Part shown: piece by piece, positions 445 to 25,755 of the stretch
Layout of the letters: each line of letters begins with the position of its first letter
How positions within the stretch are numbered: position 1 is the stretch's first letter
Assembly (NCBI GenBank): GCA_903839675.1
Contig: CAIMDB010000004.1
Location: forward strand, 1-34,003
From: an uncultured Sphingomonadales bacterium
GTDB lineage: Bacteria > Pseudomonadota > Alphaproteobacteria > Sphingomonadales > Sphingomonadaceae
Direction of reading: 5' to 3'
Length of the DNA: 34,003 nucleotides
Translations under genes and position numbers: made by a program
The notes under the pieces: generated by a model
Databases searched by the model: none
What the model saw: the letters and a program-made list of their open reading frames with translations, nothing else
What the model was told of the DNA's origin: nothing

Positions 445-519
445 ATTTTAACTTCATGTGCAGTTGCGTGGAAGTTGAGAGAACCTTGCGAACTTTCGCT
501 GTTTACTAAGCTAATCAAA

Positions 520-745: not shown

Positions 746-770
746 CATGGCAATACTCAGAAGAAAGATT

Positions 771-1391: not shown

Positions 1392-1410
1392 TTGAGGTCC
1401 TTTACGAAAG

Positions 1411-1445: not shown

Positions 1446-1474
1446 GGTTGTTAAAATTGTAATGATTTTTGTTG

Positions 1475-1498: not shown

Positions 1499-1520
1499 GC
1501 AGAGGTCCACCAGATATAAA

Positions 1521-2051: not shown

Positions 2052-2052
2052 A

Positions 2053-2064
2053 GTTATATCCCTT
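2053..2064 (-). promoter_or_regulatory. Ribosome binding site with AAGGGATATAAC motif
   Basis: AAGGGATATAAC on the minus strand, one base before the GTG start at 2051. It decides this GTG over the in-frame ATG four codons later, and it matches the 12-mer before the left-edge gene exactly. Confidence 0.65.
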
Positions 2065-2203
2065 CGCGTGATTTTTTCGTGTCCAACAGATCAAAATGCT
2101 GATCCGCTTTTCAAATTTTGAGAACGCTTTGCTGATCTATGGTGCTTTTTTTTCAGTTTTCTTATCAATATTGCGTTCTTGTTATTGCGCTGCGAACTAT
2201 TCC

Positions 2204-11200: not shown

Positions 11201-14200
11201 AGTCAAACTGCCTTGGTCAAGACGAATTCCGGTGTCCGCATCTAACGCACCCAAGAAGTAGACAGTCATGTCACCGCCGGATGTTGAGAAAAGCTCCCCA
11301 TTTGTAAGAGATATGCCGTTATTTTCTACCAGAGAAACGGATTGCTCGTCATATTGTGGCAGATCTCCAACTAAATTAGCTGGGCCAAAAACATCATCGA
11401 GGCCATTTCCACCATGCTCAACGTCCTTCACACCGATGGCGCTATTGAGCAGTATTTCTGGCAGAGCGCTTTTCTGCAGGATTGACCCGCCCATGATCTG
11501 GATCGTCCCGCTGTTGATCAGCTTGGGTGTGACGACTTGCGCTCCAGCGGCACCGATGATCTTACCGCCCGATTTGACGATAAGTTCGCTAAGTCCGCCT
11601 AATCGCAGTGTCGCAGCGCGTTGATCCCAAGCAGCCGCAGGGATCACTGCCTGCAAAAGGTCGTTCAGATCCGAAGCCGTTGCAAGGGTTGTCAAGATGC
11701 CGGTCGTCTTCTGGTCAAGAATGGACGGCAAAAGAACTTGGTTTAAATTGAGCGTCTCACCATCGGCGATGACGAATTCCGTCGTATCGAGAAACGCAGA
11801 GTTCCCCGTGATCCCATTATTGAAAAGATCAGTGAAAAGTCGCGACCGCCAAGCCGATATGTCGAGCGTGCCGAACCCTGTCTTTTGAAGAAAATCAAGC
11901 CCGATATAGCTGCCGCGATCCGGGCGAACCGTGCCCATAGTCACTTCCGGCGCGACCAAGGTAAATGTGCCGCCGCCGCCAAAGCTGAACGCTTTGATGT
12001 TGCTCGCATCGAAGCGGACTTCGGAGCGCATCACCAGTGGCGCGAGCGCCGAGCGGATTTCCTTGCCGGCATCCTCAACAAAATAAGGCGTAAAGGTGAC
12101 GCTTTGATTTTCCCCCCCGATCGGCAGGTCCGTCGTACTGGTGTTATCGAGGAAAGCATCTGTCCGGGAAAGCGACGCATAAGCCGTCTCGTTGATCAGG
12201 CTCACGCTTCCACCCTTGGCCGTCAGGTCAAGCTTTCCATTTCTCGTGACATAGCCACCGGAAGAAACGTTCAAAATCGCACCGGCGTTAAGAATGATAC
12301 TGCCGCTGAGGTCGGCAGCGTTGGATGCGGTATCCAAGCTCTCACCCAAGCCAACTAGCACCTTGGGGGCAGACGTCAGGCTAATCGATCCACCTGAAGT
12401 CCAAGCCTGACCGGAAGGCAGCGCTCCAAGATCGAGATAATCATTGGCCCAAAGCCCGGCGACATTTAGCGTGCCTTTGACTGTGACGTCGAACGGACGC
12501 GGGAGGAGAATGCCTTCAGCATAGACATTGGCCACATCGTCGGCGGTTGTGAAAGGCGAACCTGTGGCGGCGGTTAGCGAACGCAATACGATCCCATTAA
12601 GTTCATACGTGCGCGCCCTGATGTTGCCCGAAGTCGCAGTGACATCACCATCAAAGGTAATTGAGCGGCCGGAATCGACGGTCAATTGCCCCCCTTTGGC
12701 AAGCAAAAGCTGACTTCCCGACTTAAAGCTCACAGCGCCGCTCGTTTGCAGCGTGAGCGCGGAAAGTCCGGCACTTGATAGCTGCTTGTCGCCGAGGAAG
12801 ATGCTCCCTCTGCCGTCCGACAGGTCTAGCGCTTCCTCACCGTAGATGATGATATCGCCACCTAAAGCAACACCCGATTTGCCGCTGAACGATCCAACCC
12901 GCAGCAATCCTCCGGCGGGCAATTCATAAGCCGAGGATTGAAGTTTGCGCGGATCGCTCGCGACGGACGACGCCTTTGAGCCAATTTTGCCGACGTCGAG
13001 TTGGCGCTGACCAGCAAAACCATCGCCATGAAATTGGCCGGCGAGTTTAGCGGTAGATGCCCGGACAATTAGGCTGCCGGCGTCGCGGCCCTCATCGTAA
13101 CCCGGTTCAATACGACCGCCGACAAGCGAGCGGTTCGCAAAGGTACTTGAGACGCCATATTTATTCTGCTCCTCGGTGTACCCATCGGCGATGCCGACAT
13201 AGATGCCGTTGGGATCTGCTTCGCTGATGTCTACTAAGGAGCCGTCAGCTGCGATCAGCTTGCTCGTTTGCACCCAGCCGCTGCTATAACTGGCCCACCC
13301 GCCGGAGAAGTCGATCGATGCGCTTGGCGCGAGGTGAACCGCAGGAGAGTTTACGGACCCGGTCGGCCCGTCGACGAGCCGAACGCCGAGTGTTACACTA
13401 CCGCCCTTGGTCATGAGCTCTGCTGCGCCAACCCCAATCTGGCTGATCGCGCTGCCGGCCTCAATCAAAGGTGAGCCAACCCAAGCGACACCGTCGGCAC
13501 GCACACCATTAATGCGCGGATCTACATACACGGTTTTGCCATTGAGGGTAAAGCCGCCGTCCGTCCTCACATCGCGGTAATTCGGTGTATCGCGAAGCTC
13601 ATTGCCCTTTAGTGGTGAGATTTTGACGCTATTGCGGGACGCATCTATGCTGACGTCTTTGATGCCGCTCACATCAATTTTTGCACCATCTGAAATTAAG
13701 ATGCTTCCGGTCAATGCCGCATAGCCGTAATTGAGGAAGGTGGTTGGATCATATTCTTGAGACGCACGCCCACCGACCGAAACCGCAGCGCCGGGGGCAA
13801 ATAATAGAGAGTTTTCGCCAAAGGTCACCTTTCCGGGTCCAAGGATGCCGGTCGGGTTGGTCACCAACGACGCCGCAACATACATGGCACCGATGTCGAT
13901 CCGCGAATTCTTGAAACTCGGAGGATCGGCCGGCGTCCCTTGAGGGACAGTCGCCGCACTGGGGTCAGCAAGGATCACGAGCCCCCCGGCATGAGCAGTG
14001 TCAGTGCCGCCGGCCAGAGTGACAGTGCCAGCCGTCAGCGATATCGCGCCATTGCGCGCCACACTCGTGGTTGCACTGATTAGGCCGCTATTAAGGACAT
14101 TGCCGGAGAGATCTGCACCTAGCGATACATATCCCCGGGGAACATCAATCAAACCGGAATTGACAACAGATCCCCCAGTTTGTGTCGTGGAACGGAGGAT

Positions 14201-15352
14201 CAGTCCGCGAATATCTGGGTCGGCGCCATTAATGTCGCCCGAGGAAACCGCATAGCTGATCGCCCTGCCCGCCTGAAGGCTAACTTGGCCTTCTGCAGCG
14301 GATAACTTGCCGTCGTTGGAAATCTTAGGCGCAGTGATGATGAGGAACCCACCATTCGACGCAGTTAGCGACGCACCTCGGTCGACAATCACATCGCCTT
14401 CGACCTGGGTTGAGAAGGCTGCATTGGGATCGTTAATGGAGTAAATGTCATTTCCGACGAGGCTCGATGTCAGCATCGTAGTAAACTTGGTCGCCGTCGC
14501 AGACGGCCCCAACAATCCGTTTTCAAGGAAAGCTGTATTGCGTTCTTTGACCGAGAGCCCTGTGAAGCTGTTGCCGAAATCCGGCGTGTTGATGGACGGA
14601 TCTTTGGCAAAATTGCCAAGTTCCAGGCTGCTGACCAACAACGAATGGAGATTGACTTGGGCACCGTTGCCAAAGATCACGCCACGACGGTTCAAAATCA
14701 GGACGGTCCCATCGGCCTTAATCGACCCAAGAATTGTGCTCGGTGCGATATCTGCGCTCACGACGCGATTGACCACAACCCAATCTGACTGTCCGACACC
14801 GTTCAGCTTTTGATCGAATTGCAACGTGGTCTTGGCGCCAATGTCAAACCGGTTCCACGACAGAAGGGCACGGGGGTCTGTCTGCTTGATCGAGACGAGA
14901 TGATTGCCTTGGCTGTCCACTGACTGCGCCGGCAATTCCGCTCCTTGCCAGGTCGCAAGTCCGGTGACGTCACTCGCGGCTGAGCGAGCGGCAATGACAG
15001 CCGGGTCGAGGCCGTTGATCGAAAGACCATCCGTCGGCCGTGCCCGCGACGCAGCCAAGGCTGCACTTCGAGCTTCGGCGACGATCGACCGCATCGCGTC
15101 AACGGAGCTAAGGTTGGCCTTTTGGCGTGCGAGTGCATCCTGCATAGCAACCGGGCGCGCTCTCGTACGGATAGATGATCCATCGGTCACGACAACAGGT
15201 GGCTCACCGACGGCGCCACGCAAACGCGCCATTTGCGCATTGACAGGCGTGACCGACGCGAAAACGCCCAGAACCATCAGACTAACGCCAGTCAATAAGC
15301 GCTGGCGCCCAGCCCGTGGCTTCGTCGTCAGATTATTAGAATGCCTAGCCAT
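2204..15352 (-). CDS. Giant filamentous haemagglutinin-like TPS exoprotein (TpsA, DUF3739-type)
   Basis: The product is about 4382 residues, a very large two-partner-secretion exoprotein expected to form a long extracellular beta-helix for adhesion or biofilm. I chose the ATG at 15352 (GGGTG 8 nt upstream) over an in-frame TTG two codons earlier. Residues 1-40 are a signal peptide with a long basic n-region, without a recognisable ESPR. After a linker of about 95 residues comes the TPS (haemagglutination activity) domain, about 135-250, with the diagnostic ILNRRGVIFG at 219-228. The body is thousands of residues of Gly/Ser/Ala/Asp-rich short strands (patterns such as GGSISLTAG, IAAGGDIDLSG) typical of beta-helices. 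Residues of about 4250-4365 match my memory of the DUF3739 domain (VTLLAPVGTVDAGDAGVRAS). The chain ends with Cys4369 and Cys4380 (CX10C). No frameshift or stop breaks the 13-kb frame, so the gene is intact. Its transporter is very probably the TpsB encoded at 20204-21973. Confidence 0.93.
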   Translation of the reverse strand: MARHSNNLTTKPRAGRQRLLTGVSLMVLGVFASVTPVNAQMARLRGAVGEPPVVVTDGSSIRTRARPVAMQDALARQKANLSSVDAMRSIVAEARSAALAASRARPTDGLSINGLDPAVIAARSAASDVTGLATWQGAELPAQSVDSQGNHLVSIKQTDPRALLSWNRFDIGAKTTLQFDQKLNGVGQSDWVVVNRVVSADIAPSTILGSIKADGTVLILNRRGVIFGNGAQVNLHSLLVSSLELGNFAKDPSINTPDFGNSFTGLSVKERNTAFLENGLLGPSATATKFTTMLTSSLVGNDIYSINDPNAAFSTQVEGDVIVDRGASLTASNGGFLIITAPKISNDGKLSAAEGQVSLQAGRAISYAVSSGDINGADPDIRGLILRSTTQTGGSVVNSGLIDVPRGYVSLGADLSGNVLNSGLISATTSVARNGAISLTAGTVTLAGGTDTAHAGGLVILADPSAATVPQGTPADPPSFKNSRIDIGAMYVAASLVTNPTGILGPGKVTFGENSLLFAPGAAVSVGGRASQEYDPTTFLNYGYAALTGSILISDGAKIDVSGIKDVSIDASRNSVKISPLKGNELRDTPNYRDVRTDGGFTLNGKTVYVDPRINGVRADGVAWVGSPLIEAGSAISQIGVGAAELMTKGGSVTLGVRLVDGPTGSVNSPAVHLAPSASIDFSGGWASYSSGWVQTSKLIAADGSLVDISEADPNGIYVGIADGYTEEQNKYGVSSTFANRSLVGGRIEPGYDEGRDAGSLIVRASTAKLAGQFHGDGFAGQRQLDVGKIGSKASSVASDPRKLQSSAYELPAGGLLRVGSFSGKSGVALGGDIIIYGEEALDLSDGRGSIFLGDKQLSSAGLSALTLQTSGAVSFKSGSQLLLAKGGQLTVDSGRSITFDGDVTATSGNIRARTYELNGIVLRSLTAATGSPFTTADDVANVYAEGILLPRPFDVTVKGTLNVAGLWANDYLDLGALPSGQAWTSGGSISLTSAPKVLVGLGESLDTASNAADLSGSIILNAGAILNVSSGGYVTRNGKLDLTAKGGSVSLINETAYASLSRTDAFLDNTSTTDLPIGGENQSVTFTPYFVEDAGKEIRSALAPLVMRSEVRFDASNIKAFSFGGGGTFTLVAPEVTMGTVRPDRGSYIGLDFLQKTGFGTLDISAWRSRLFTDLFNNGITGNSAFLDTTEFVIADGETLNLNQVLLPSILDQKTTGILTTLATASDLNDLLQAVIPAAAWDQRAATLRLGGLSELIVKSGGKIIGAAGAQVVTPKLINSGTIQIMGGSILQKSALPEILLNSAIGVKDVEHGGNGLDDVFGPANLVGDLPQYDEQSVSLVENNGISLTNGELFSTSGGDMTVYFLGALDADTGIRLDQGSLTDLRGGVIFNPRAPLLKTGKQQITGRLYDGGSISTSATFFDPQLSLFSDPVYSSARYLIPKGGSSQSYAQGTLGMRFEVRPKARIDLRGASTNFDIQISASNYALTPQWSNGGQLIALAGGTLGGGSILAQGGSVKAQGGTLEWLLPTLRQNYGAATTLVDGVEETGDPVDVVDNLLSADEIMANGFTTMIARGGLSLDGNISLTLGKAFILSSASAASASPQERDYQVAVTALNNGNTTIRAPYIRLSSLAQTAPDALSTDADTGTLTFSAKTIDLVGGLGFATPVGMTEEGTATGSVNFNATGDIRISGVQPAVKSSDQPLGLTGAIVSTSDIRFKAAQVYATTGTGSLQQLIEDRRAGKSSSAQPYLIASLDSNGTVSFASNGGTVPASPYSAGSWVRVLGSKIEQNGVLRVPLGLLELGSNIDQSIPGSLNTAPVTTSLTFGPLSVTSVTGFGLNTPYGVTTDLTEYYFSPNVNTALTAAPVGQLILAGGNIDVKTNAVIDGRGGGDVFAYEFVSGTGGSRDVLSRFNSDSFSSNDGLQFEDGRQVYAILPVSKAGLVASYDPLYSADYQGETGDLYGESAGKTVWLDSAPGITAGEYLLLPAHYALLPGAMRLVENANVAAPFVNTAQTKLDGGIIVGGSYATAGTNFIESTRRAFTVETPDVFLKYSKIQRTSGAANFAKLAEKNGLIAPRSPLDAARFIISPLNSFLVNGTFNVDAVNGRGAQVDIAAANIAVRSSETRNPVEGILSLASGDLQKLGANSLLIGGVREDNPDGTTTINILAQKTRIYSGVSLFLPELLLVTAGEGSELRIDGGATISATGDLADRRTGNYLIRYLETPPDDFIYDNSGIGSFVRVSSGAERVLSRQSDPSLDEEILATGSLMIRTKAALSGNAIAFDTSGSISFGEAPIIAAANISLGSANIAFNADGIAQSIGDQLAAAQNLTLKSRSAITLDDQLPTSFNNLTIDAPGLASNGTASPLRIKAKNLVLTNSGIDLGSCTVSANAVCGDTSALTVKADEIALRDGQFYLYGFDGGVDLAAAKGIYVEGKGALVIDDPENPAYVGLTLSTPLLADRLERSSSGNHEYSFLTFGDVIIDGSGLTAVASGSPSPGTTISFGSAAAPIASMTIVDAQLRATAGILDIVAEGDISVSGTSALSVPGYSTRIGATSDGLIATAGGGTINLKSIDGSIISESSTRIIVDNTIGTAGVLNLLAASGTVQLGAALNPDILGGTQRAASLLLDGTLLLNATGQAFDFASFVLENGSKFQGDIEIHAGSGDFNLDQGQNLRARSVNLTTDDGLIVIAGAIDTSGDNVTSLAMSDPAYAKARVNGGDIALYGSDGVALASTATLRSVSYGYNAGDSRQASAGNIILGIGNERANISLASGAIIDVSVRDTADRLIGLKVKDPDTLTETTVYRLAAGDLGGTVNFRAPVVGEGRLVDIRNDGQIIGARALQIEAFKRFDLDAIADEGAFSGVTIDGDGAAHLDASANDLPNFLADTTTLGSVPEFIRSFNVGLKNGSDSSRYRIRPGVELVSSGSVILDSNINLGAGTITDYAGAVRDRLMVISPLGPDADGNPRYEVVQGKETELFGRYVDMTFRVGGSVSGEAAAFVIRAGGDLQVNNSISDGFFAFHDRTDPDYISYQLGGGNRSYHPAVNLNCADGGLCGFDMPAYSELKDAAEQPSDDMIVTIDLRASIQGGQFSNIFVHSPFSAAANSVAAMGTNDAIGIGELFPLVGNQPVRSSDIRLVAGASGTSPNPLQVNRSSLGSVIIAGEKNYSVNANEGDTIVDGPLQLAYDDGSGVMLYGSAGEFLTKTIADIIPSDLARDFYTRLDWGRDSDLAEAAKAAAANFFSGNRFIVEGGETIGVYASLGDVEAFLATDFGKTFAANFADIALETESPVSFTQAAAYVRPLVRTGNGSIRIAAGGDIDLSGGGELVYRDVNGASVDEFGEPLVPNFDNAQVGGSAIYTAGNRLPVFGKPDSALGGFGAEALDYVPSPQGALDAAPVMAGNGGSISLTAGADVRGRRDIWSEAFLSSGLEIFTTMPGYESGTTTLNPAHVGAASQRWRVGQIGQNSSIAIVPQLFSSGVGALAGGDVSIKAGRDVSDLTIALDNSVTTDTLLDGAKVLLSSASGNLAVYSGRDMTGGQIDLASGVGQMIVGRAVGAAGETYTLDSYEDNVPSPDFRSLLRLRVSDATLTLTARGDVDIGGIGALGADRAVSNIAESLNAAGFFSPAAGVDIETFGRLELVDNRKELRVAFADQNTSALDASFLTGYVLPPSLRLSSLTSDLVFGNSNPRLLYPSQYGQLSLLAGGNMSSFSLAMSDANPSDLPGAFSVAKFEGVAGDLYRLGGLGFTFGSVVMPTDDVMLRLYHDRGITHLADSQDALIYAGGSIENVQLSLAKPVRINAGKDIINFYFEGQNTRASDVTSIVAGRDILATTGVPPADGIFGGRPYVGVTNFILGGPGALTVQAGRDLGPFLNSVTVDNVSYAGGIRTIGAEANPWLPSSGADIFALFGVANGADYVALRDVYLNPKQLDKLDGALFEQFVDKAGNKTPDRSRPIYAPKLARWLRANAPAAFAAAVGDAKITTDVELVKLSYDRYDAFYTQFESAVSVQQQRQFLLNEVYFSELAAPADPNGNSYLQYVRGYRAVQTLFPASAGYTDNLATFETDPATISKDHPLGVPTKKLVNGQPAIAVRKLTGNVDLRLATIQSSRGGDVDLIGPGGDFIAGSVVRTSEQALRKSTPYNDNGIFNIRNGNALEIIAVGIDAIPIGYEGVLSLRGGTIRSFTDGDFRLNQSRLFTLSGGDVTMWSSNGDLNAGQGPKSASNFPPVTLRFTPNAFAEVDTAGSVAGAGIAAFRPSLDVAPSRVTLLAPVGTVDAGDAGVRASGDVFVAAARVANSDNFKVGGVSVGVPSSAAVAAPAPPANAAAATTAAAAQANSQQNGNGSDRPSLIRVDVLGYAAGADNCSTDRRNADGTCAN

Positions 15353-15434
15353 GAACAATACACCCGGTCTGATTTTGTTTGATTTTGGGAATTTGTTTTA
15401 CTGAAGTGCGCTTGATTGGTTTGCTAGTGACTGA

Positions 15435-17234
15435 CTAGAACCGTGCCTTAATGTCGACTTGCAGCACATCGATTGCCAGCGGTTCGCCAGAAATCTCATT
15501 TGCACTTAGCCACCGACCACCAATGTTGAGGCCATCACGAAGGCTGTAACTGCCACCGACAATATATCCTTGGGAGTTTGTGCCACCGAGATGGAAGTCG
15601 CTGTCCGCCAAGCTGTCCAAAACAGCGTCGGATTCTAGATAACGATATTCTGCAAAGACGTTCCAAGTCCCCTGCTTGTCAACGCGATCATGACCGAAGG
15701 TAACCGACCCTAGATACCCTGTGTCACCGCCAACAAAGCTGGTTGGATTGGTCGCGCTGCAGACGTGCCGTTCAGGATTGCCATCGGTGCCGTAATTGTT
15801 GAATGGCTCTCCAACTTGACCAAACCGGCAAATGTCGCTCCGCTGAAAGCCGAGGTTCTTCAGATAATTTCCGGTCAAACGGATCCCAAGATTGTCGGAA
15901 ACTGAAACTCGCGTAGCGAAGTTTGCATCCAGAATATTGTACCCGAATGTAAGGCCGAAGACCTGCGGATAGGCTCCTGAGGCATTGGTTTCGTGGTTAC
16001 GCATGGTGAAGACGGTATTACCCTTGCGCAGGTTCAGCGGTCGAAGGCCATCGGTCGAGCAATCCACCACGAGGTCCATATTACATGGCGCGGAAAGTTC
16101 GCCCTGGACATTCTGGAAGCTATGATAGCCAACACTTGCATTCACTTTGACGCCATTAAAGGGTTCTGCCTTGAGCGCGAGTTCGCCGGAGAACAGATAT
16201 TTCGACGGGTAGTTTAGCTTTTCGATGCTGGCGGCAGGATAATCAGGCGCGCCAAAATCAAGTGGGAACACACCTGCCACTAGGCGCATCATCGTCTTGC
16301 CGCCGATAAAATTGGCCGAATTCAGAGATGCAACTGCACCATCAAAGCGCAGATCATCGTCGAACATCATCTGGCTCGCGCTAAAGGGATTTTCAAAACG
16401 GCCTAAGCTCAAGATTGCCCATTTGGCCGGCTGAAACTTTAGATAGCCGAGGTCGAGCCAGACATTGCGTTTGGCGAGACCACCGCCAAGGGTGGAATTC
16501 GTCGAAATTGGGCTGTTATCTTCCCCCGTTGCAATCGCGAAGCCGGCTGACACGCCGGAAGAAACCGCGGCTTCCATCCCAATACGCGCCCGAAGCATGA
16601 GGCGATTCCAACGATCTTCCCGAGTGTTTAAGAACTGATATGAACTCAGTTGCGCAAGATCGATCGGTCCCGCTTCGTTCATCTTAGCAATGTCGAGCAC
16701 TTCATTGGAATTCGTGCCCGCGTAAAGCGATGATTGGCTGCGCACCCGGATATCGCCAAAGGGACGTATCCGTTTGGTCCATTCTGGTGCCGCCTGATCT
16801 TTGGTAACCCAACCTTCGAGTTGCGCCTGCTTTGCAATGTCGGTTCTAAGTTCGTCGCGGATCTGCTGGCGAACGGTTTCGGGAACGTGGCGGACCCTAA
16901 CGGTACCCGGCGCTGAGACAGGTCCACCGGATGCATCCCGCAGCCGCGCTGCATCGGCGCTTGCCTGCTGAAGTAGCATATTGCCACCCTCAGGTGTCAA
17001 TATCCCCTTTTCTACCAGTGTCTGAATGAGACTGCTGACCGCGGACGGCTGATTGGCCTGATCCTCAGGCTTTGCTCCAGCCTGCACGGGCTTACCGTTG
17101 ACCATGAAAACTTGGTTGGAGATGTCCCATGACGACACCGCCGCCTGTACGGGCGAATGAGCCACCATCGCGGCGACCATAGCTACCAAACTGCAGGCAA
17201 GCTTGCACGAATTGTAGGGCTTTCCCTTAAACAT
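15435..17234 (-). CDS. Porin_5-type putative outer-membrane porin
   Basis: I place the start at the ATG at 17234 because GGAG stands 6 nt upstream and a clean signal peptide follows (MFKGKPYNSCKLACSLVAMV, cut after VQA). Earlier in-frame starts reach 17294 and would overlap the tonB stop. The protein (about 599 residues) has the layout of the 'putative porin' family (Porin_5): a periplasmic region with a short helix (SSLIQTLVEKGILTPEGG, about 67-84) and a charged stretch, then from about residue 150 a beta-barrel opening with RPFGDIRVRSQ and ending in a C-terminal Phe (VDIKARF), the Bam recognition residue. It probably forms a substrate channel in the outer membrane. It sits directly behind tonB, which raises the possibility that it is the TonB-energised partner, though I see no clear TonB box. 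Confidence 0.85.
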   Translation of the reverse strand: MFKGKPYNSCKLACSLVAMVAAMVAHSPVQAAVSSWDISNQVFMVNGKPVQAGAKPEDQANQPSAVSSLIQTLVEKGILTPEGGNMLLQQASADAARLRDASGGPVSAPGTVRVRHVPETVRQQIRDELRTDIAKQAQLEGWVTKDQAAPEWTKRIRPFGDIRVRSQSSLYAGTNSNEVLDIAKMNEAGPIDLAQLSSYQFLNTREDRWNRLMLRARIGMEAAVSSGVSAGFAIATGEDNSPISTNSTLGGGLAKRNVWLDLGYLKFQPAKWAILSLGRFENPFSASQMMFDDDLRFDGAVASLNSANFIGGKTMMRLVAGVFPLDFGAPDYPAASIEKLNYPSKYLFSGELALKAEPFNGVKVNASVGYHSFQNVQGELSAPCNMDLVVDCSTDGLRPLNLRKGNTVFTMRNHETNASGAYPQVFGLTFGYNILDANFATRVSVSDNLGIRLTGNYLKNLGFQRSDICRFGQVGEPFNNYGTDGNPERHVCSATNPTSFVGGDTGYLGSVTFGHDRVDKQGTWNVFAEYRYLESDAVLDSLADSDFHLGGTNSQGYIVGGSYSLRDGLNIGGRWLSANEISGEPLAIDVLQVDIKARF

Positions 17235-17283
17235 CAATGGCTCCATCGATCTAAACTGGTTGGCACGCGCGGCGTGCATCGAT

Positions 17284-17982
17284 TCAAAAGGCACGGCTGC
17301 CTCGGACTGTAATTTTCTGCGGGAAGCGCAGACCTGCCGGTGGAGGGTCTAGTCCACGAACCGACTGCAACACGGCCAGCAGAATTTGGTCGCGCTTAGT
17401 GTTGCCGCTTGAGCGGAGAATTTCGGCACGGTTAAGCTGGCCATTGCCGCCAATCCAAACAGCAAAATCAGCACTGAAAACCTGACGATTGACGCGGTCA
17501 TTATCCTGAATTTTGTCCTGCAACGCGCTGCTCAGATAGCGGCCATAAAAACCCGTCGCGACGCCGCCGCAATTCACCCCGACACAGGATCCTGATGACC
17601 CGCCGCCGCCCATGCCCCCGCCTTTGCCGGAACTTAGACCAAACGCATCGGTGCCCGCTTGCGCAGGCCCATCAATCTTCATTGGCGCTGGCTGATCGGG
17701 TGCCGGGGTGGGTTCTGGCGTTGGCGCTGGATTGTCGACCGGTTCCGGCGGTTTAACGTCGGGTTCAGGCGGTGGTGGTGGTGGTGGAGGCGGTGGTGGT
17801 GGTGGCGGAAGCATATCGACCACTGTTGGCGGTGCTGATTTCACTTCGACGCCGCGAATATCGGTCATCGCGGTATAGATGAAATAGCCCAAAGCGAGGA
17901 CGAACAGCAGCAGGCCCAGCTGCGCGAAGCGGCGGGACAGCGGGACCTTGCTGGATTGCTCGAAATCGAGGGGCTGGTTCAT
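17284..17982 (-). CDS. tonB: TonB-like energy transducer
   Basis: This 232-residue protein has the TonB plan: a short cytoplasmic N terminus, one membrane anchor (about 20-40, LGLLLFVLALGYFIYTAM), a Pro-rich periplasmic spacer with 14 consecutive prolines (59-72) followed by PEP/PTPEP repeats, a Gly-rich hinge (about 115-130), and a C-terminal domain of about 90 residues (YLSSALQDKIQDNDRVNRQ to the end) like the TonB/TolA C-terminal fold. TonB carries energy from ExbB-ExbD to outer-membrane transporters. A Cys pair CVGVNC between hinge and C-terminal domain is unusual. The gene begins 14 nt after exbD and its stop overlaps the longest reading of the porin gene. Location in the TPS operon suggests a dedicated rather than housekeeping TonB (inference). 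Confidence 0.88.
   Translation of the reverse strand: MNQPLDFEQSSKVPLSRRFAQLGLLLFVLALGYFIYTAMTDIRGVEVKSAPPTVVDMLPPPPPPPPPPPPPPEPDVKPPEPVDNPAPTPEPTPAPDQPAPMKIDGPAQAGTDAFGLSSGKGGGMGGGGSSGSCVGVNCGGVATGFYGRYLSSALQDKIQDNDRVNRQVFSADFAVWIGGNGQLNRAEILRSSGNTKRDQILLAVLQSVRGLDPPPAGLRFPQKITVRGSRAF
17767..17808. repeat. Proline-codon microsatellite (GGT/GGC-rich tract)
   Basis: Fourteen consecutive Pro codons on the minus strand, seen on the plus strand as GGT-type triplets with a few GGA/GGC variants. Slippage would change length by whole codons. Such a run normally needs EF-P for efficient translation. Confidence 0.9.
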
Positions 17983-17996
17983 GACTTTGGATTTCG

Positions 17997-18404
17997 TCAG
18001 GAAGCGGTTGGCTTACCGGTCACGAGCCCAACCTTATTGAGATCGATGCGGCGGCAGAGGTCGAGAACCTCCATGATCTTGCCATACTGAGTTACCGTAT
18101 CGCCCTTGAGAACAATAGGCACGTCAGGGTTTGCTGCCTTGGCATTGCGCAAGCGCGTCTCGAGATCTGGCAGAGTGACAGGAAAGGCATCCATGAAGAT
18201 CTGACCCTGATCATTCACGGTAATCGCAACAGTCTTCGGTTGGACGAGGCTTTTCGCCGCACTTGCCTTCGGCAGATCGACCTTGATGCCCTGCACAGAG
18301 GCCGTCGCCATGAGGATGAAGATCACCAGCAGCACGTACGCGAGGTCGAGCATCGGAGTGATGTTAATGTCGTCATAGGCCTTACGGCCGCCACCTACTT
18401 GCAT
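17997..18404 (-). CDS. exbD: ExbD-type proton channel subunit
   Basis: The 135-residue product is of normal length for ExbD/TolR. It has a short cytoplasmic N terminus (MQVGGGRKAYDDINITPM), one membrane helix (about 19-37, LDLAYVLLVIFILMATASV) carrying the conserved ion-path Asp at position 20, and a periplasmic domain with the usual ITVNDQGQIFMD and IVLKGDTVTQYGKIMEVLD segments. With ExbB it makes the proton-driven motor that energises TonB. The start is an ATG with AAGGAA 8 nt upstream; this site overlaps the TAA stop of the upstream exbB-type gene (TAAGGAA), so the two are translationally coupled. Confidence 0.95.
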   Translation of the reverse strand: MQVGGGRKAYDDINITPMLDLAYVLLVIFILMATASVQGIKVDLPKASAAKSLVQPKTVAITVNDQGQIFMDAFPVTLPDLETRLRNAKAANPDVPIVLKGDTVTQYGKIMEVLDLCRRIDLNKVGLVTGKPTAS

Positions 18405-18416
18405 CGCACTGGTTCC

Positions 18417-20204
18417 TTATTCTGCAGCTTCGCGGGCGTAAGCCGCATCGGCCTGCATTTCCGCGAGGCGGGTGATGAGGCGATCAATGAAAACGCGCAT
18501 GGAATCCGCAAGCGCGGAAATGCGTCCATTTAGATAGTTGTAACCAAACAGCGCTGGAATAGCGCAGGCCAGACCCGCGATCGTTGCGAGCAGGGCCGCC
18601 GCGATACCCGGCGCGATTGCGTTCACATTTACGTCGCCCGCCATTGCCACGCCGCCGAACACCGTCATAACCCCGATCACCGTGCCGAGCAGCCCGATGA
18701 AGGGGCCGCCCGAAATCGCGATGGTGAGAATGACCATCATGGAGTCGAGCTTTTGGTTCTCCTCGACATAAACGGCATCGACGGCGGCACGCATGGACTT
18801 AACCGCTTCACCGGAAAGCGGACGGGTGGCGGCTGCTTTGCGGCGCACATCAAGTTCGGCGATGCCCATTTCATAGAGACGCGCAATGGGTGAAGCCTTC
18901 TTGATGAAGGCGGCCTCTTGCGGTTTAATCCCCTCGATCTGGTCCAGCGGCACAAGGTTATCTTGCATCGCGTTGAAGCGATTATAGAACATCGCGTTCC
19001 CCTTGGCCGCAGAGTTAAGATAGCGGATCTTCCGGACCATCAGCGTGACGGCCATTGCCAACAAGATCATACAGACGCCGATAACCCCGGCGTCGATCGG
19101 TTCGAGCTTGCTGACAATGAAAGTGAGCACACCGCCGCCACTGCTCTGCTTTTCCGCCGTCTCAGCAACTAAGACGAGCTTGGTCGAAGGGCCTTCTGCA
19201 TTGGCCACAGCCATCATCATTGCTGCTGGGCGAGCAATCTTGGACAGCCGGACTTCGTCCAGCACGCCGATAAATGGTTTGTCAGTCGCACCACCAAGCA
19301 TGATCGGGCCGTCGATTGCCGGCAGCGATACAGATGCAGCACCTGCTTCCACGCCATTCACGTAAATTTTCAGCGTGGTTCCATCCGCGATGACACCGAC
19401 ATGCGTCCAATCCGCCTGCTTGACTGGGACTGTTGCCGCAGCTCTAGCACCGCCAATCGCCACGAAAGGCAGGCCGCTATTGATGCCGATCACCATTGGT
19501 CCACGCACGAAGATTGCCTGTTCACCCGCGAGTTGGTCAGGCTTCATCCACGCTGAAAACGTGAAGGGACTTCCCGCAGTCATCGCGAGCGAGGGAGTTG
19601 GGTTGATCGTCAGCCCACCTTGGCCAACAAAACGACCACCGCGACCGATTATGGAACCATCATCAACGCTGGCAGGTGCGTTGGTTGCGTTGTTGCCGTT
19701 GGCGGTCTTGTCGGCAGTCGGCTGCCCAGGACCTTCTGAGAAATGATAAACGGCCATGTAGTCTGGATCGAAACTACCCGCGACATCTTCCCCGACTGGC
19801 GCGTTCTTGTTCCCAAAATAGAGCCATATCGACTTCTTCTCACCACCATTCAAGGCCGGCACACTGATCCAGACCGTTGCGACACCGGCCTTTTGATCAT
19901 AGGTTTCAATATGATAGGGGATCGGCGTTTTATCGTCTGCATCCACAAAACGAAGATCGGCGCCGTTCTCCAAAGCTTCAGTAAAGGTGAAGTTGGCGCT
20001 ATGAAGGCGGATGAGGATTGGGGTCCGACCAATAGGGCCGCTTACATTGACGCCGGTCGTAGACGTATCGATCGTCACTTGCTTCCGATATGCCCAGTCC
20101 TTTTGCCACCAAGCGGCGGCTGGCGTCGATAACGCCAGTGACAGAAACAGGGCTAGAATTCCCCTAAACATCTGCTTGCTCCCCAAAAACTTCATTTCCT
20201 GCAT
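18417..20204 (-). CDS. DUF2341-LamG-ExbB fusion (MotA/TolQ/ExbB proton channel)
   Basis: This 595-residue protein joins a large secreted N-terminal part to an ExbB channel. Residues 1-31 form a signal peptide. About 45-140 match DUF2341 (KQVTIDTSTT, TVWISVPALNGGEKKSIWLYFGN split across the domain). About 150-335 look like a LamG/concanavalin-type lectin fold (FTFSAWMKPDQL, DWTHVGVIADGTTLKIYVNG, FIGVLDEVRLSK). A helix at about 365-392 crosses the membrane, then a cytoplasmic loop, then two helices with the ExbB/TolQ signature (GPFIGLLGTVIGVMTVFGG about 500-518; IAAALLATIAGLACAIPALFGY about 534-555). Ordinary ExbB is about 240 residues and lacks the lectin part. The ATG at 20204 overlaps the tpsB stop (TGATG). 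An alternative ATG at 20171 has a better GGGGAG site and leaves a complete signal peptide. It should assemble with the ExbD and TonB encoded next. Confidence 0.9.
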   Translation of the reverse strand: MQEMKFLGSKQMFRGILALFLSLALSTPAAAWWQKDWAYRKQVTIDTSTTGVNVSGPIGRTPILIRLHSANFTFTEALENGADLRFVDADDKTPIPYHIETYDQKAGVATVWISVPALNGGEKKSIWLYFGNKNAPVGEDVAGSFDPDYMAVYHFSEGPGQPTADKTANGNNATNAPASVDDGSIIGRGGRFVGQGGLTINPTPSLAMTAGSPFTFSAWMKPDQLAGEQAIFVRGPMVIGINSGLPFVAIGGARAAATVPVKQADWTHVGVIADGTTLKIYVNGVEAGAASVSLPAIDGPIMLGGATDKPFIGVLDEVRLSKIARPAAMMMAVANAEGPSTKLVLVAETAEKQSSGGGVLTFIVSKLEPIDAGVIGVCMILLAMAVTLMVRKIRYLNSAAKGNAMFYNRFNAMQDNLVPLDQIEGIKPQEAAFIKKASPIARLYEMGIAELDVRRKAAATRPLSGEAVKSMRAAVDAVYVEENQKLDSMMVILTIAISGGPFIGLLGTVIGVMTVFGGVAMAGDVNVNAIAPGIAAALLATIAGLACAIPALFGYNYLNGRISALADSMRVFIDRLITRLAEMQADAAYAREAAE

Positions 20205-21973
20205 CAGAACTCGCCCTTGACTGAAAAATTGACCCGCGGTTTGCCGCGGCGGCTTTCTGGACGGCTGATCAATGGAACACCGACCGTCAGATCGCCCTTG
20301 AGATGCTTGAACAGTTTGATCCGCACCCCGCCGCCTAGACTTGCGAGGCTGAACGACCCTTCCTGCTCGGGAAGCGGATCGATGACGCCCACAATGCCGC
20401 CGTCAAGAAAGGTAAAGGCGCGCAAATCGCCCACAAAACTCGGCAGGTATTGTGCTAACGAAGGACCGACCAGTTCGCTCGTTGCGGCAAAGCCACGGTC
20501 TCCGACAACTTCTGACTGATAGTAGCCACGAACTGTCGAACCGCCACCGATGCCGAACTGCTCATTGGTAACGAGATGGCTGTCCGCGAACTGGCCGGCA
20601 AAGCGCAGCACCGCACTCACATCGTCAAAAAGAATGCGCGAGTAGCTACCGTCGATGCCAATATGAGCAAAATTCTCACGGCTGCTGAAGTCCTTTAACG
20701 TAAACTGGTCTTCAGGCGTGCAGCCGGCTACACTCGCATCGAGACAGTCCAGCCGCTTTATCACCCGCAATCCAAAAGTTGCTGAGATGTTGAAATCGGC
20801 CTCCGCCTGCTCATCGGCACCGGAATATGTGTAGCCAAGTGTCATGGGGATATAGCGGATTGGCGCCTTGCTCGCGAGTTCACTGGCCACGAAGATGTTC
20901 TGGTTGAAGTTTTTAAAATCGACGCCAATCGAAAGCGCCTGATAGTTCTTTTGGCTCGGCAACCGGTACATAGCACGCAGACCAACTTGATAGCCGTCAC
21001 CCAAGACCTGCGTGCCACCTAGAGCGGCAATAGTGCTGTTCGATTTGTATCCGAATGCTACTAAAGTCCAAGGTGTTCCTAGCATTGGTGCATTGTAAGA
21101 TAACGAGATAACCGACGTTTCCTTGGGCGCCTGTGGCGTCATGATGTAAGACGCTGATAAAGTGTGACCAACGCCCCACATGTTGGTGAGGCGGGCAGAC
21201 GCGGCCATGCGCAATGGCGTCGTATTGGGGCTGTTATCGTTGTTGACGTCAAGGCTGGCGTGAAATGGCAGGCTATCTTTAACCTTGAGCTCGACGTCGA
21301 TCGCGCCAGGTTCTTTGCCGGGTTTGAACGACGGCATAACGGCTCGATCAGGGACGCGGTTGGCCTCTGCCAGATCCGATTGAAGAGCTTTCAGGTTGAG
21401 CGGTCTCCCTATCTCGACCGAGGCCAATTGATCTCGAACTGTTCGCGAGGAATGGTGCTTGGCACCGACGACACGTACTTCTCCGACAGGCGCTTCCGCC
21501 ACTCTGATCTGAATGATACCGGCGTCGAATAGAACCTTCTGCTGCGAAGGAATTTCCACTACAACAGCCTCATAACCCTTTCCGTTGTAAGCGTCTTGCA
21601 GCGCCTTTCGTGCCGCTTCGATATCATCAGAAGTCTTACCTGGTCCCGTGAAGGGGTAGACCAATCGCTCGATCTCATTGACATCCAACACTGTCGCCCC
21701 TGCCACCTCGATAACATCGACGTTGAACTGGGGAGGCGGAGCGGAATTAGGTATCGCCGCTGGATCGGAGCCTGCGGGCGCCGAACCAGCGGGATCAATG
21801 GGTGGCGCGGCATCAGTGGCTCCAACCGATGTGTCAGCACCGTTTGAGGGCCCACTTTCCTGGGCAGGCTCGGCCAAACTCTGCGCACCTGCAGGGGACG
21901 CCAACAGCAATAAAATTGCCGTCGACACCAAGCCTTCGACCATACGCCTGTTCGTGGAGAACTTAAAAAACAT
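20204..21973 (-). CDS. TpsB-type outer-membrane transporter (ShlB/FhaC/HecB family)
   Basis: This 589-residue protein is the Omp85-superfamily transporter that exports the TPS exoprotein. A signal peptide ends near residue 30 (SPAGA-QS). An Ala/Pro/Gly/Ser linker of about 50 residues follows, then POTRA1 (about 83-159, FNVDVIEVAGATVLDVNEIE) and POTRA2 (about 162-234, GEVRVVGAKHHSSRTVRDQL), then a 16-strand barrel. The conserved loop-6 motif of the superfamily is present as VRGYYQSE (481-488). The chain ends VNFSVKGEF with a C-terminal Phe. The ATG at 21973 has only a weak ribosome site. It is the first gene of the minus-strand operon and overlaps the next gene by one base. Its natural client is the giant exoprotein five genes downstream. 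Confidence 0.95.
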   Translation of the reverse strand: MFFKFSTNRRMVEGLVSTAILLLLASPAGAQSLAEPAQESGPSNGADTSVGATDAAPPIDPAGSAPAGSDPAAIPNSAPPPQFNVDVIEVAGATVLDVNEIERLVYPFTGPGKTSDDIEAARKALQDAYNGKGYEAVVVEIPSQQKVLFDAGIIQIRVAEAPVGEVRVVGAKHHSSRTVRDQLASVEIGRPLNLKALQSDLAEANRVPDRAVMPSFKPGKEPGAIDVELKVKDSLPFHASLDVNNDNSPNTTPLRMAASARLTNMWGVGHTLSASYIMTPQAPKETSVISLSYNAPMLGTPWTLVAFGYKSNSTIAALGGTQVLGDGYQVGLRAMYRLPSQKNYQALSIGVDFKNFNQNIFVASELASKAPIRYIPMTLGYTYSGADEQAEADFNISATFGLRVIKRLDCLDASVAGCTPEDQFTLKDFSSRENFAHIGIDGSYSRILFDDVSAVLRFAGQFADSHLVTNEQFGIGGGSTVRGYYQSEVVGDRGFAATSELVGPSLAQYLPSFVGDLRAFTFLDGGIVGVIDPLPEQEGSFSLASLGGGVRIKLFKHLKGDLTVGVPLISRPESRRGKPRVNFSVKGEF

Positions 21974-22372: not shown

Positions 22373-24097
22373 ATGTCATCGCCCTCTGCCAAGATTACGA
22401 TTCTGCCCGCGGATCAGAAGGAGTCAGCGACAGGTTTCAGGCGAGAGCCAGACTTAACAGAATTTCTATTGAATCACACGTCCCTCGGAGAAGACGCGCT
22501 TTCGCGCGTACGCCTAATTGAAGGCGAAACTGGGGACGCGCCAGACAAAATTGTAACGCGGCTCGGTCTACTTTCAGAGGATGAAATGGCCCATAGCCTC
22601 GTGACAGCGCTTGGCCTTCAACTAGTCAGCGCCAGCAGCTTCCCGGCAGAACCGCCAACCATCCCCAATTTATCATCAGCCTTTTTACGTGATCGTCGGA
22701 TCGTCCCACTGGCCTTGAGTGGTGGCCGTGTCCAGTTAGCAATGGCCAATCCATTGGATGAATCGGCAGCTGAAGGTATTGCCTTCGTTACAGGCTGCAA
22801 GGTTGACCGGCTCGTGGCACGAGGAGGTGACATAGATGCTGCGATCGAACGACTCTACCGCACAGAGCCCGCAGATAACCTTGATGAGCAGGTCGATGAC
22901 AACGACCTTGAACGCCTGCGAGACTTGGTAAGCGATGCGCCGGTGATCAGGGCAGTCAATAGGCTTATTGCCGACGCGGTCGACGCGCGGGCGTCGGACA
23001 TTCACCTTGAACCCGCAGACGACAAGCTGACTGTCCGCTTTCGTATCGACGGCATGCTGAGAGAAATGCCCGCAAAACCCTCCGCGATGCGGGCGCCCAT
23101 TATCTCTCGCATCAAGGTTATGGCCAACCTCAATATTGCAGAACGCCGCTTGCCACAGGATGGCCGATTGCGACTAACGGTGCGTGGTCATGAAATTGAC
23201 CTGCGCGTCGCGACTGCCCCGTCAATTCATGGTGAGAGTGTGGTGATGCGCATATTGGATCGCGCAAATCTGGCGCTTGACCCTGCATCGCTCGGATTTG
23301 ATGAGGCGCTTGAAGTCGCATTTCTTGCCGCGTTGCAACAGCCTCACGGCATCCTACTCGTGACGGGGCCAACCGGTAGTGGCAAGACCACAACACTTTA
23401 TGCCGCGCTGTCACACCTCAACTCAAACGAACGCAAATTGACGACGATTGAGGACCCTATCGAATATCGGTTACCCGGCGTTATTCAGTGTCAAGTGAAC
23501 CCCGGCATCGGGTTCACATTCAGCAATGCTCTGCGCTCCTTCCTCCGCCAAGATCCAGACGTGATGATGGTCGGAGAAATTCGCGACACCGAAACAGCGC
23601 AAATTGCCGTGCAAGCCGCATTGACCGGGCACCTGATCTTATCGACGCTTCACACCAATACAGCTGCTGGCGCGGTCACGCGTTTGCTCGATATGGCCGT
23701 TGAGCCATTTTTGCTGAGCTCTGTGCTGACAGGCGTGCTGGCACAACGCCTCGTTCGGCGGCTTTGTGTTCACTGCCTTACGCCCTATCGCCCTGATCCC
23801 GAGGCATTGGCGACACTCGACCTTGGGACAGAGATTGAAGACGCAGACGTTTTTTATCGCAGCTCAGGATGCGATCAATGCCGCGGGAGCGGCTATGCTG
23901 GCCGGATCGCCCTCTTTGAGTTCATTCGGATCGACCGCGACATTGCGACGCTCATCATGCAGCGTGCCGATGCGCGCCACATTGCAGATCAGGCCGCGCG
24001 CGCTGGTGCAGGCTCGCTTCGGGAAGATGGTATCCGAAAGGCACGCCTCGGGCTTACGAGCCTTGAGGAAGTCGTTCGAGTGTCGAGCGAGGATTGA
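22373..24097 (+). CDS. gspE: Type II secretion ATPase GspE
   Basis: The 574-residue product is the cytoplasmic ATPase that powers pseudopilus assembly. An N-terminal GspE/PilB N1-type domain spans about 25-160. The ATPase core has Walker A GPTGSGKTT (332-340), the Asp box around EDPIEYRL (360-367), Walker B DVMMVGEIRD (396-405) and the His box TGHLILSTLHTN (418-429). The zinc-binding tetracysteine element of GspE is present as CVHC (465-468) and CDQC (500-503). Length is slightly longer than the usual 500-570. The ATG at 22373 is preceded by AGGGCCTAGG. It is the first gene of the plus-strand operon, whereas in canonical clusters gspC and gspD come first. Confidence 0.97.
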   Translation: MSSPSAKITILPADQKESATGFRREPDLTEFLLNHTSLGEDALSRVRLIEGETGDAPDKIVTRLGLLSEDEMAHSLVTALGLQLVSASSFPAEPPTIPNLSSAFLRDRRIVPLALSGGRVQLAMANPLDESAAEGIAFVTGCKVDRLVARGGDIDAAIERLYRTEPADNLDEQVDDNDLERLRDLVSDAPVIRAVNRLIADAVDARASDIHLEPADDKLTVRFRIDGMLREMPAKPSAMRAPIISRIKVMANLNIAERRLPQDGRLRLTVRGHEIDLRVATAPSIHGESVVMRILDRANLALDPASLGFDEALEVAFLAALQQPHGILLVTGPTGSGKTTTLYAALSHLNSNERKLTTIEDPIEYRLPGVIQCQVNPGIGFTFSNALRSFLRQDPDVMMVGEIRDTETAQIAVQAALTGHLILSTLHTNTAAGAVTRLLDMAVEPFLLSSVLTGVLAQRLVRRLCVHCLTPYRPDPEALATLDLGTEIEDADVFYRSSGCDQCRGSGYAGRIALFEFIRIDRDIATLIMQRADARHIADQAARAGAGSLREDGIRKARLGLTSLEEVVRVSSED

Positions 24098-24102
24098 TCC
24101 CC

Positions 24103-25320
24103 ATGGTGATGTTCCGATATCGCGCACTGACAGGCAATGGCGCTACCGTTGGTGGCCAAATTGATGCTTTGAGCCGCACTGACGCGATCGCCAACCTAAA
24201 AAAATCTGACATGCGGCCGATCATGGTCGAAGAAGAGGCTGTTGTTGCTGGTCGCCGGGACCATCGTGCCGTCGATGGCCGATCACGTCGACTGGTTAAC
24301 AATTTCTTGTCCGAAATTGGTGTGTTACTCCGGTCAGGGCTACCCCTTGATCGCGCCTTGGCAATTGCCGTCGACAATGTCGATCAGCCACAACTGAAAA
24401 CAAGGGTCGGCGAAGTCTTGGCTGCCGTGCGGGAGGGCAAGCCTCTCTCGGCAGCCCTATCGGCGCAAAATGGGCTCTTCCCCGCCTTAGCTCCCGCAAT
24501 GAGCGAAGCAGGCGAGGCCAATGGCCAACTTGGTCAGGCGCTTGAGCGGTTGGCCCAGATGCTCGACCAGACAGAACAGCAGCGGCGGCAAGTCGCATCT
24601 GCGATGCTGTATCCAATTGCGATGTCGATTGTCGCGACCGGTGTGATGTTGCTCATGCTGCTGTTTGTGGTGCCTCAGTTCGAGCCGTTGTTCGCGACGG
24701 CTCCTGCTGGGTCCCTGCCCCCTGCCTCGGTTGCGGTCATGGCAATCAGTCGGTTTATACGGGACCACGGCCTAGTCCTTTTAGGAGGCTTGGCAGCGAT
24801 AGGATTTGCAACCCGACAGGCCCTCGCCCAAGCAGGCACAGCGCAGTGGTTTGACCGCCAAGTGCTCGATGTACCGCAAATCGGCGTGCTTATCCGAAAC
24901 ATCGAAACGGTTAGATTTTCCCGCAGTCTAGGTGCACTTCTCGATGGTGATGTTCCCCTGCCGGTGGCGCTGGAGCTCGCCCGGCGCACCATCTCCAACC
25001 GCCATTTGCAAAAGGCGATTGGCGATGTCACCGATCAGGTCCGCCAAGGCGGCGGATTGACGGCACCACTCGCCCGCACAGGCGCTCTTCCAACAATTGC
25101 GGTCAGCTTCATTCGCACGGGGGAGGAAAGTTCCGAACTTGGGCCAATGCTCGGCCGCCTCGCGACTTTGCTTGATCGGGACATAGAGACCCGGCTCGAG
25201 CGGCTTATTGCCGTCGCCACACCCGCCATCATCGTGACCCTCGGCGTGGCGGTCGCGGGGATGGTCGCATCGATTATGTCAGCAATTCTCGGCTTCAACG
25301 ATTTGGCGGTAACAAGATGA
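24103..25320 (+). CDS. gspF: Type II secretion inner-membrane platform protein GspF
   Basis: The product (405 residues) is the polytopic platform protein that couples GspE to the pseudopilus. The start MVMFRYRAL fits the family's usual opening; an in-frame TTG at 24094 overlapping the gspE stop is possible but less likely, since GAGGA lies 9 nt before the ATG. Two T2SSF repeats span about 66-189 and 267-390, each ending at membrane helices (about 171-191, 223-240, 370-394). Characteristic segments are LLRSGLPLDRAL, SEAGEANGQLGQAL and RTGEESSELGPML. It overlaps gspG by ATGA. Confidence 0.96.
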   Translation: MVMFRYRALTGNGATVGGQIDALSRTDAIANLKKSDMRPIMVEEEAVVAGRRDHRAVDGRSRRLVNNFLSEIGVLLRSGLPLDRALAIAVDNVDQPQLKTRVGEVLAAVREGKPLSAALSAQNGLFPALAPAMSEAGEANGQLGQALERLAQMLDQTEQQRRQVASAMLYPIAMSIVATGVMLLMLLFVVPQFEPLFATAPAGSLPPASVAVMAISRFIRDHGLVLLGGLAAIGFATRQALAQAGTAQWFDRQVLDVPQIGVLIRNIETVRFSRSLGALLDGDVPLPVALELARRTISNRHLQKAIGDVTDQVRQGGGLTAPLARTGALPTIAVSFIRTGEESSELGPMLGRLATLLDRDIETRLERLIAVATPAIIVTLGVAVAGMVASIMSAILGFNDLAVTR

Positions 25321-25748: not shown

Positions 25749-25755
25749 ACTGACA

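Follow-up and report, generated by a model that had tools for sequence, protein, structure and literature searches.

The window analysed here, the whole stretch of 34,003 bases, is an entire contig (C4) of a 2.9-Mb, 96% complete draft genome from an uncultured Sphingomonadales bacterium, and carries on its minus strand a two-partner secretion (TPS) operon in which genes for a TpsB transporter, an ExbB-type protein, ExbD, TonB and a Porin_5 porin are followed by the gene for a giant TpsA exoprotein with a DUF3739 region near its end. As judged from gene co-inheritance, the conclusion that this ExbB–ExbD–TonB motor is dedicated to TPS systems with DUF3739 exoproteins is well supported. ExbB–ExbD–TonB motors normally power TonB-dependent receptors, and TPS transport through TpsB needs no TonB. 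We give about even chances to the reading that the proteins form a dedicated Ton/Tol-like motor of what we call the Pdt/DUF3739 TPS class, acting on an outer-membrane complex of TpsB, porin and exoprotein; the physical target, the direction of force and the step affected are parts of this reading that we infer.

The motor and porin genes are inherited with DUF3739 exoproteins

Among 299 Pseudomonadota genomes, drawn evenly, the DUF3739 exoprotein family occurs in nine, from six families, and full-length Porin_5 occurs in the same nine and in no others; three genomes without DUF3739 (G154, G237 and G286) gave Porin_5 matches that were partial or weak (19 to 108 bits). DUF2341, which lies on the ExbB of this operon, occurs in eight genomes, all within the nine and always on this ExbB, and in the ninth (G284) the ExbB is truncated by a contig end. 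Since TpsB of any kind is found in 127 of the 299 genomes and the full set in nine, the gene set marks a special class and is not a general feature of TPS. The nine genomes hold ten porin clusters, two of them in G155. A TonB gene adjoins ExbD in all ten, and ExbD adjoins the porin in nine; in the exception, G268, TpsB, porin and TpsA lie on one contig (C29; L092 and L104) and ExbB–ExbD–TonB on another (C17; L097). In G019, tpsA sits between tpsB and exbB, and the porin contig of G284 is too short for tpsB to show. At the 11 other TpsB places in these genomes, no ExbD lies closer than 20 kb, as judged by coordinates (a few of these places are close to contig ends). Likewise, 21 control TPS loci (20 fetched plus L095; L195, L197 and L198 are truncated at contig ends) gave no matches at E 1e-5 to models of ExbB, ExbD, the porin or the DUF3739 end. 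As a side observation, the motor genes on C17 of G268 adjoin a protein that resembles, by eye, a secreted beta-helix.

A wider set consisted of the best 80 of at least 527 confirmed porin relatives from a porin-alignment scan of species genomes, a non-random sample, with gene order called by models built from the first ten porin clusters. The order tpsB-exbB-exbD-tonB-porin on one strand is complete in 74 of these 80 loci; five (L148, L152, L156, L159 and L186) are truncated by contig ends yet consistent with it, and L137, which is the G268 case, is the single split locus. The loci span Sphingomonadales, Caulobacter, Burkholderiales, Pseudomonas, Stenotrophomonas, Luteibacter and others, the nearest relatives of the window porin among the matches listed being from Novosphingobium and other Sphingomonadales. 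One full copy of the operon (L190) stands in a record named Bacillus subtilis and is probably contamination.

Directly 3' of the porin, tpsA was found in 21 of the 80 loci, as in the window, and a DUF3739-like end was seen in 36; elsewhere tpsA would lie beyond the stretch or in another place. A YbjN-like gene lies downstream of the porin in 55 loci, and in the Pseudomonas locus L149 the run reads porin, coiled coil, YbjN, PpiC, LysR. In 60 of the 80 (for example, L149:11816-12463), the next product after the porin is a coiled-coil-like protein that bears a signal peptide, belongs to no Pfam family and is PA0697-like by position; a query with this protein found no match in the window genome, in a search without a positive control.

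Chance clustering is rejected by the co-occurrence across the 299 genomes together with the conserved order in the 80 loci. Joint occurrence of DUF2341-ExbB, ExbD, TonB, Porin_5, TpsB and DUF3739, which the initial annotation had proposed as a check, proves near-absolute in the genomes examined, and the objection that linkage is not conserved falls away. The co-inheritance argues that motor, porin, TpsB and DUF3739 exoprotein work together.

Organization of the operon in the window

The coordinates are collected in Table 1. All five genes from tpsB to the porin lie where the initial annotation had placed them, on one strand, and tpsA comes last. Its description of overlapping or nearly touching ends holds from tpsB through exbB and exbD to tonB, and is less secure for tonB and the porin: the listed porin open reading frame (ORF) begins at GTG and a signal peptide points to a later ATG near 17234, so that this last overlap may not be real. 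The annotation's statement that no TonB-dependent receptor is encoded is borne out by an ORF and Pfam scan of the window, the rest of the genome not having been searched for receptors; the window ORFs of at least 600 residues are TpsA, the porin and the secretin of a type II secretion system (T2SS) only. Nor did the window ORFs scanned with Pfam match ECF, FecR or STN.

Table 1 Features of the TPS operon and its flank in the window
Feature	Position	Strand	Evidence and remarks
tpsB	20204-21973	-	ShlB 80.9 bits and POTRA_2 (Pfam)
exbB	18417-20204	-	DUF2341, Laminin_G_3 and MotA_ExbB 88.9 bits (Pfam); 1 base in common with tpsB
exbD	17997-18404	-	102.3 bits (Pfam); 12 bases past exbB
tonB	17284-17982	-	TonB_2 PF13103 26.1 bits (cut-off 22); 14 bases past exbD
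TonB_2 domain of TonB, residues 146-225	17308-17547	-	Pfam
Porin_5 gene	15435-17294	-	PF16930 460.1 bits, profile 3-535 of 535 (full-length)
Periplasmic segment of the porin, conserved and flexible, GTVRVRHVPETVR	16869-16907	-	Candidate docking site; family form GDVRVPYVPExVR
tpsA, giant exoprotein of 4384 residues (13.2 kb)	2204-15358	-	TPS domain and DUF3739; 76 bases past the porin
DUF3739 of TpsA, residues 4208-4317	2408-2737	-	Pfam
C-terminal motif of TpsA, PSLIRVDVLGYA	2264-2299	-	A tail of 19 residues, two of them Cys, comes after it
Type II secretion operon (GspE, F, G, J, L-like, D, K)	22373-32157	+	Pfam; divergent; context, not part of the operon

Relation to known systems

By gene content and order, the window operon is of the Pdt/DUF3739 locus type, a layout that is already in print. 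The Pseudomonas aeruginosa locus comprises, in the available text of its description, pdtA, phdA, pdtB, exbB2, exbD2, tonB4 and PA0696–PA0699 near the hxc T2SS, with PA0696 a putative outer membrane porin, PA0697 structurally homologous to colicins, PA0698 a YbjN and PA0699 a PpiC protein (PMC7035377). Excerpts of two further accounts report that one promoter reads phdA, pdtB, exbB2D2, tonB4 and PA0696–PA0701 (PMC4971064), and that homologues of the TPS genes, exbBD and PA0696 are associated with PUMA3 in six further genomes (PMC2729926). The window shares with the Pdt/PUMA3 locus, as far as these accounts describe it, the gene types, their order, the closeness of a T2SS and the giant size of the TPS exoprotein, and Pseudomonas L149 carries coiled-coil, YbjN and PpiC genes at the places of PA0697–PA0699; this likeness rests on the published P. 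aeruginosa gene order, not on its sequences. The window differs in having no phdA, no vreAIR and no PA0697–PA0699 neighbours, in having tpsA directly after the porin, and in the divergent direction of its T2SS. The VreA-VreI-VreR regulators reported in P. aeruginosa, of which none was found in the window, are not required for the locus type.

TpsB, with its two POTRA domains and 16-strand ShlB/FhaC barrel, and TpsA, with a TPS domain (TIGR01901, 55.2 bits; cut-off 29.1), form a type Vb pair like FhaB/FhaC and CdiA/CdiB. The operon differs from these in its linked motor and porin, in DUF3739, in a C-terminal motif on the exoprotein and in the apparent lack of the N-terminal TpsB helix H1. With canonical TonB-ExbB-ExbD it shares the three-part motor, the ExbD Asp, the ExbB Thr motifs and a Pro-rich TonB, and it departs from them in having no receptor in the window, DUF2341-LamG on ExbB, Ala at the position of Glu176 and a TonB_2 end. 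TolQ-TolR-TolA is likewise akin through its motor scores and unlike in the points given below. The available text of a review describes the haemopexin system HxuCBA of Haemophilus influenzae as another set of TPS genes that includes a Ton-linked one (PMC5422565); that gene encodes a haem-taking TonB-dependent receptor, whereas the present operon encodes the motor itself and no receptor. The literature searched yielded neither the short, plugless-looking TpsB N-terminus, the TpsA tail motif, the conserved periplasmic segment ahead of the porin barrel, the TolQ/TolR-leaning scores of the motor and the co-occurrence of DUF3739, Porin_5 and DUF2341-ExbB, nor DUF3739 itself.

The motor components

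In the ExbB, periplasmic DUF2341 and LamG-like domains precede the membrane motor core; DUF2341 is listed, in the accessible part of a 2025 study, among unexplained appendages of such motor subunits (PMC12505986). With the NCBIfam models the ExbB scored 117.5 bits for TolQ (cut-off 221) and 68.8 bits for ExbB, both under the equivalog cut-offs, and the ExbD scored 91.7 bits for TolR (cut-off 127.3) and at most 71.2 bits for ExbD. By these curated models, the motor core is nearer to TolQ/TolR than to ExbB/ExbD, with neither cut-off reached. The ion-path residues of TonB systems are present: the window ExbB retains GLLGTVIG and ALLAT motifs, the GLxGTV (Thr) motif is kept in 77 of 77 ExbBs, and the transmembrane Asp of ExbD, aligned with solved ExbD/TolR chains, in 78 of 78.

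The gene called tonB in the initial annotation does encode a TonB-like protein, which in an alignment of seven consists of a membrane helix, a Pro-rich spacer, a conserved DG.AQAG.DAFG..G.GGGM segment and a TonB_2 C-terminal domain. It is not a canonical TonB, however, its end domain belonging to PF13103 and not to PF03544 (TonB_C); the latter has no match on the operon TonB and three elsewhere in the genome, and TIGR01352 gave 25.4 bits, under its cut-off of 27.1. Against solved structures, the end domain matched TolA and TonB alike, though weakly (E near 0.09).

Two of the relatives encode VreA-like proteins, with STN and TonB_2 domains by Pfam, next to FecR or ECF genes (L085:3714-4565 and L126:2855-3715), and another lies near the locus in L101 (18582-19295), recognized by eye and by its TonB match. 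When the L126 protein served as query, the best match in the window genome was the end domain of the operon TonB (30% identity, E 5.4e-4), a similarity by which the two C-terminal domains are related. No separate VreA was found in this 96% complete draft with that query, which besides the TonB domain returned one weak short match.

TpsB, porin and exoprotein

The model of TpsB shows the two POTRA domains at residues 83-233 and the barrel at 237-589, with CdiB and FhaC as the nearest structures. In both of these, according to the available text of two papers, the N-terminal helix H1 plugs the barrel (PMC7644211, PMC5422565). H1 and its linker are typical of TpsB proteins without being a strict hallmark of them. 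The TpsB proteins of the present class appear to be without H1. From the signal-peptide core to POTRA1, 75 of 76 family TpsBs (L131, truncated at a contig start and with no clear signal core, was excluded) have a median of 18 residues, as against 54, with a minimum of 46, in the 21 controls; in both sets the start of POTRA1 was estimated from one model position, which offsets the lengths, so that the window TpsB reads 30 by the estimate and about 47 by eye. Ahead of POTRA1, 13 of 21 controls have a charged, helix-like 14-mer free of Pro and Gly, compared with one of the 76 TpsBs of the family. POTRA1 almost abuts the signal peptide in Stenotrophomonas and several Pseudomonas members, and in three family TpsBs the N-terminus is rich in Ala, Pro and Gln and so long that it reaches into the range of the controls (L125, 72; L180, 54; L183, 47). 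The corresponding residues of the window TpsB are rich in Ala, Pro and Ser, and the model has no helix there, but with low confidence; structure alignments beginning at model residue 21-22 are of very low confidence and were used neither for nor against H1.

The porin model (mean predicted local distance difference test score 79.2) begins with a helical hairpin, continues with a flexible conserved segment and a helix, and ends in a 16-strand barrel that has no plug domain. Across 47 sequences, residues 128-160 are conserved at 3.25 bits per column, compared with 2.64 for the barrel. A sequence search for solved porin relatives gave none (one chance-level match), and the best solved match of the model is OmpM1 of Veillonella, titled an outer membrane attachment porin. 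A disguised TonB-dependent receptor was considered and rejected, as the barrel is classical and plugless and the top Foldseek matches are OmpM1, MOMP, chitoporin and AlgE.

The C-terminal part of TpsA is ordered as DUF3739, an Ala-rich linker, a short motif and then 1 to 65 residues. The motif is strand-like and reads, in most sequences, [PA]-S-[IV]-[IFV]-x-V-[QERD]-V-[LI]-[GS]-[FYL]-G. The strict search pattern for it is present in 42 of 46 distinct DUF3739 C-termini; the other four are L007 and L015 (near matches), L011 (none clear; the divergent second system of G155) and a wrong-frame ORF of L157 included in the count. It is found in none of 28 long ORFs of the 21 control loci (21 closed by a stop and seven without a stop in the stretch; not all are exoproteins). 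The second operon copy of G155, a sphingomonad (L094, contig C5), is more divergent, and its exoprotein end has no clear motif. In the window TpsA, two Cys follow the motif (2204-2263), a position at which few of the C-termini inspected have Cys; a cysteine hook like that of HMW1/CdrA was dropped as an explanation on account of this rarity.

Proposed mechanism and alternatives

On the reading to which we give even chances, ExbB–ExbD would tap the inner-membrane proton gradient for energy and TonB would carry it through the periplasm to an outer-membrane complex of plugless TpsB and Porin_5, where the motor would act on the export or gating of the giant exoprotein or on its retention at the surface. 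The TonB C-terminal domain would most likely dock through strand addition, its partner being a conserved flexible strand in either the TpsA C-terminal motif, while still periplasmic, or the GDVRVPYVPE segment of the porin, and such docking would hold, pull or release the last part of TpsA. The TpsA tail and the porin segment are favoured as docking sites because both are conserved, apparently flexible and strand-like. That G268 has retained the motor genes elsewhere in its genome, although its operon is broken, speaks for this reading. A more specific form of it, which we regard as speculative and distinctly doubtful, has TpsB without its plug and TonB gripping a TonB-box-like TpsA strand (PSIxxVxVLGFG) on a flexible C-terminal tether in the periplasm. 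That a proton-driven machine would thereby hold, pull or release the ~0.4 MDa exoprotein through the TpsB-porin complex seems to us just as doubtful; VreA-type sensors may read the same strand and report the export state. To our knowledge, a tail tag of this kind, carried by a protein that is itself secreted by the cell, would have no precedent as a TonB substrate tag.

Several observations weigh against an action of the motor on the secretion complex. All parts are in one operon, so co-inheritance cannot name a physical contact, and an exploratory mirror-tree analysis (73 loci; partners within one operon are not separable) gives TonB no clear partner (highest partial correlation 0.21). The number of DUF3739 proteins per porin and motor is not fixed, with three in G200 and two in G284. 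With respect to the plug, seven of the eight control TpsBs without the charged stretch are themselves sphingomonad (L095, L194, L195, L196, L201, L202 and L203; the eighth is L213), albeit no shorter than the other controls, and within the window's own family the contrast is therefore one of length only. The emphasis on the porin segment as a docking site must be set beside the finding that the most conserved 12-residue windows of the porin lie in the barrel, near residue 565. In the ExbB, the position of E. coli Glu176 is occupied by Ala in 40 of 40 aligned sequences, hinting at a different motor cycle; Glu176 is essential in E. coli ExbB according to the available text of one study (PMC8599685). 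TPS translocation is held, in the review text cited above, to require no source of energy, and it proceeds in reconstituted liposomes (PMC5422565). Finally, insertion into tonB4 (PA0695) gave no virulence phenotype in zebrafish in the accessible account; tpsA and tpsB mutants likewise had none, so this result is not decisive (PMC2729926).

An alternative that we consider unlikely is a Tol-like tether, in which the motor would position or cluster the TPS-porin complex, or brace the envelope where the giant protein is anchored, and would not drive export. This explanation accords with the higher TolQ and TolR scores, with the weak resemblance of the TonB end domain to TolA as well as to TonB, with OmpM1, an attachment porin, as the nearest solved fold of the porin, and with the signal-peptide-bearing coiled-coil protein that so often follows it. 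TolQRA acts on Pal, and no Pal- or TolB-type gene was seen among the Pfam-scanned window ORFs (the relatives were not scanned for them); furthermore, the TolQ and TolR equivalog cut-offs were both missed and the query for the coiled-coil gene, lacking a positive control, found nothing in the window genome.

More unlikely still would be a role in nutrient uptake, with the motor energizing the porin for phosphate-containing or other solutes and the TPS genes being its neighbours only because phosphate starvation regulates them jointly. The modelled porin is a classical barrel that has no plug, and open porins need no TonB; nor would shared regulation alone account for full-length Porin_5 never occurring without DUF3739 in the 299 genomes. 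Phosphate does enter the picture in P. aeruginosa, where the available texts place the locus in the sigma-VreI/PhoB regulon, beside a phosphatase-secreting T2SS (PMC7035377, PMC4971064), and report that PA0696 protein rises under phosphate limitation (PMC9769906), and a T2SS flanks the window operon too.

The initial annotation had named TpsB, the porin and the surface release or assembly of the exoprotein as possible targets of an energized TPS variant. Its strict version, in which the motor works directly on TpsB, opening or cycling it and thereby powering translocation, we judge highly improbable. TpsB does appear to have no plug helix, tpsB is the first gene of the conserved order, TpsB and the porin remain together where the motor is unlinked (L137), and the strongest partial correlation in the exploratory mirror-tree analysis outside ExbB/ExbD (0.61) joins the porin barrel to the TpsB POTRA domains. 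On the other hand, a plugless pore should need less opening force, not more, and inspection of TpsB by eye revealed no conserved segment resembling a TonB box, POTRA1 being preceded by a short, Ala- and Pro-rich stretch. A sensory role, in which ExbB-ExbD-TonB would inform the cell of the export state of TpsA, alongside VreA-like STN-TonB_2 proteins, draws on the FecR or ECF genes that adjoin such proteins in L085 and L126 and on their related end domain, but is scarcely credible given the conserved ion-path residues and a window genome that keeps the motor though no separate VreA was matched.

Genomic surroundings and implications

The T2SS genes from GspE onward adjoin tpsB in five of the 80 relatives (L114-L118), and GspD-type matches were seen in three more (L170, L175 and L178); a T2SS, hxc, also adjoins the pdt locus of P. 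aeruginosa. Past the T2SS of the window lies a gene for a Hydrolase_2 cell wall hydrolase (32261-32980, minus strand), a relative of which is found upstream of tpsB in L121. At the other end of the window (1-2100), three plus-strand ORFs (28-546, 747-1250 and 1444-1986) matched no Pfam family.

The driving force of TPS export is an open question, the accepted view in the available review text being that no energy source is needed (PMC5422565). The class described here spans alpha-, beta- and gammaproteobacteria, and its motor and porin are inherited with the TPS genes almost invariably in the genomes examined. Two short conserved segments, in the exoprotein tail and in the porin stalk, are direct targets for binding and deletion tests. 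Should the motor act on export or release, the system would be an energized type V system, and the Ton/Tol family would have a new job.

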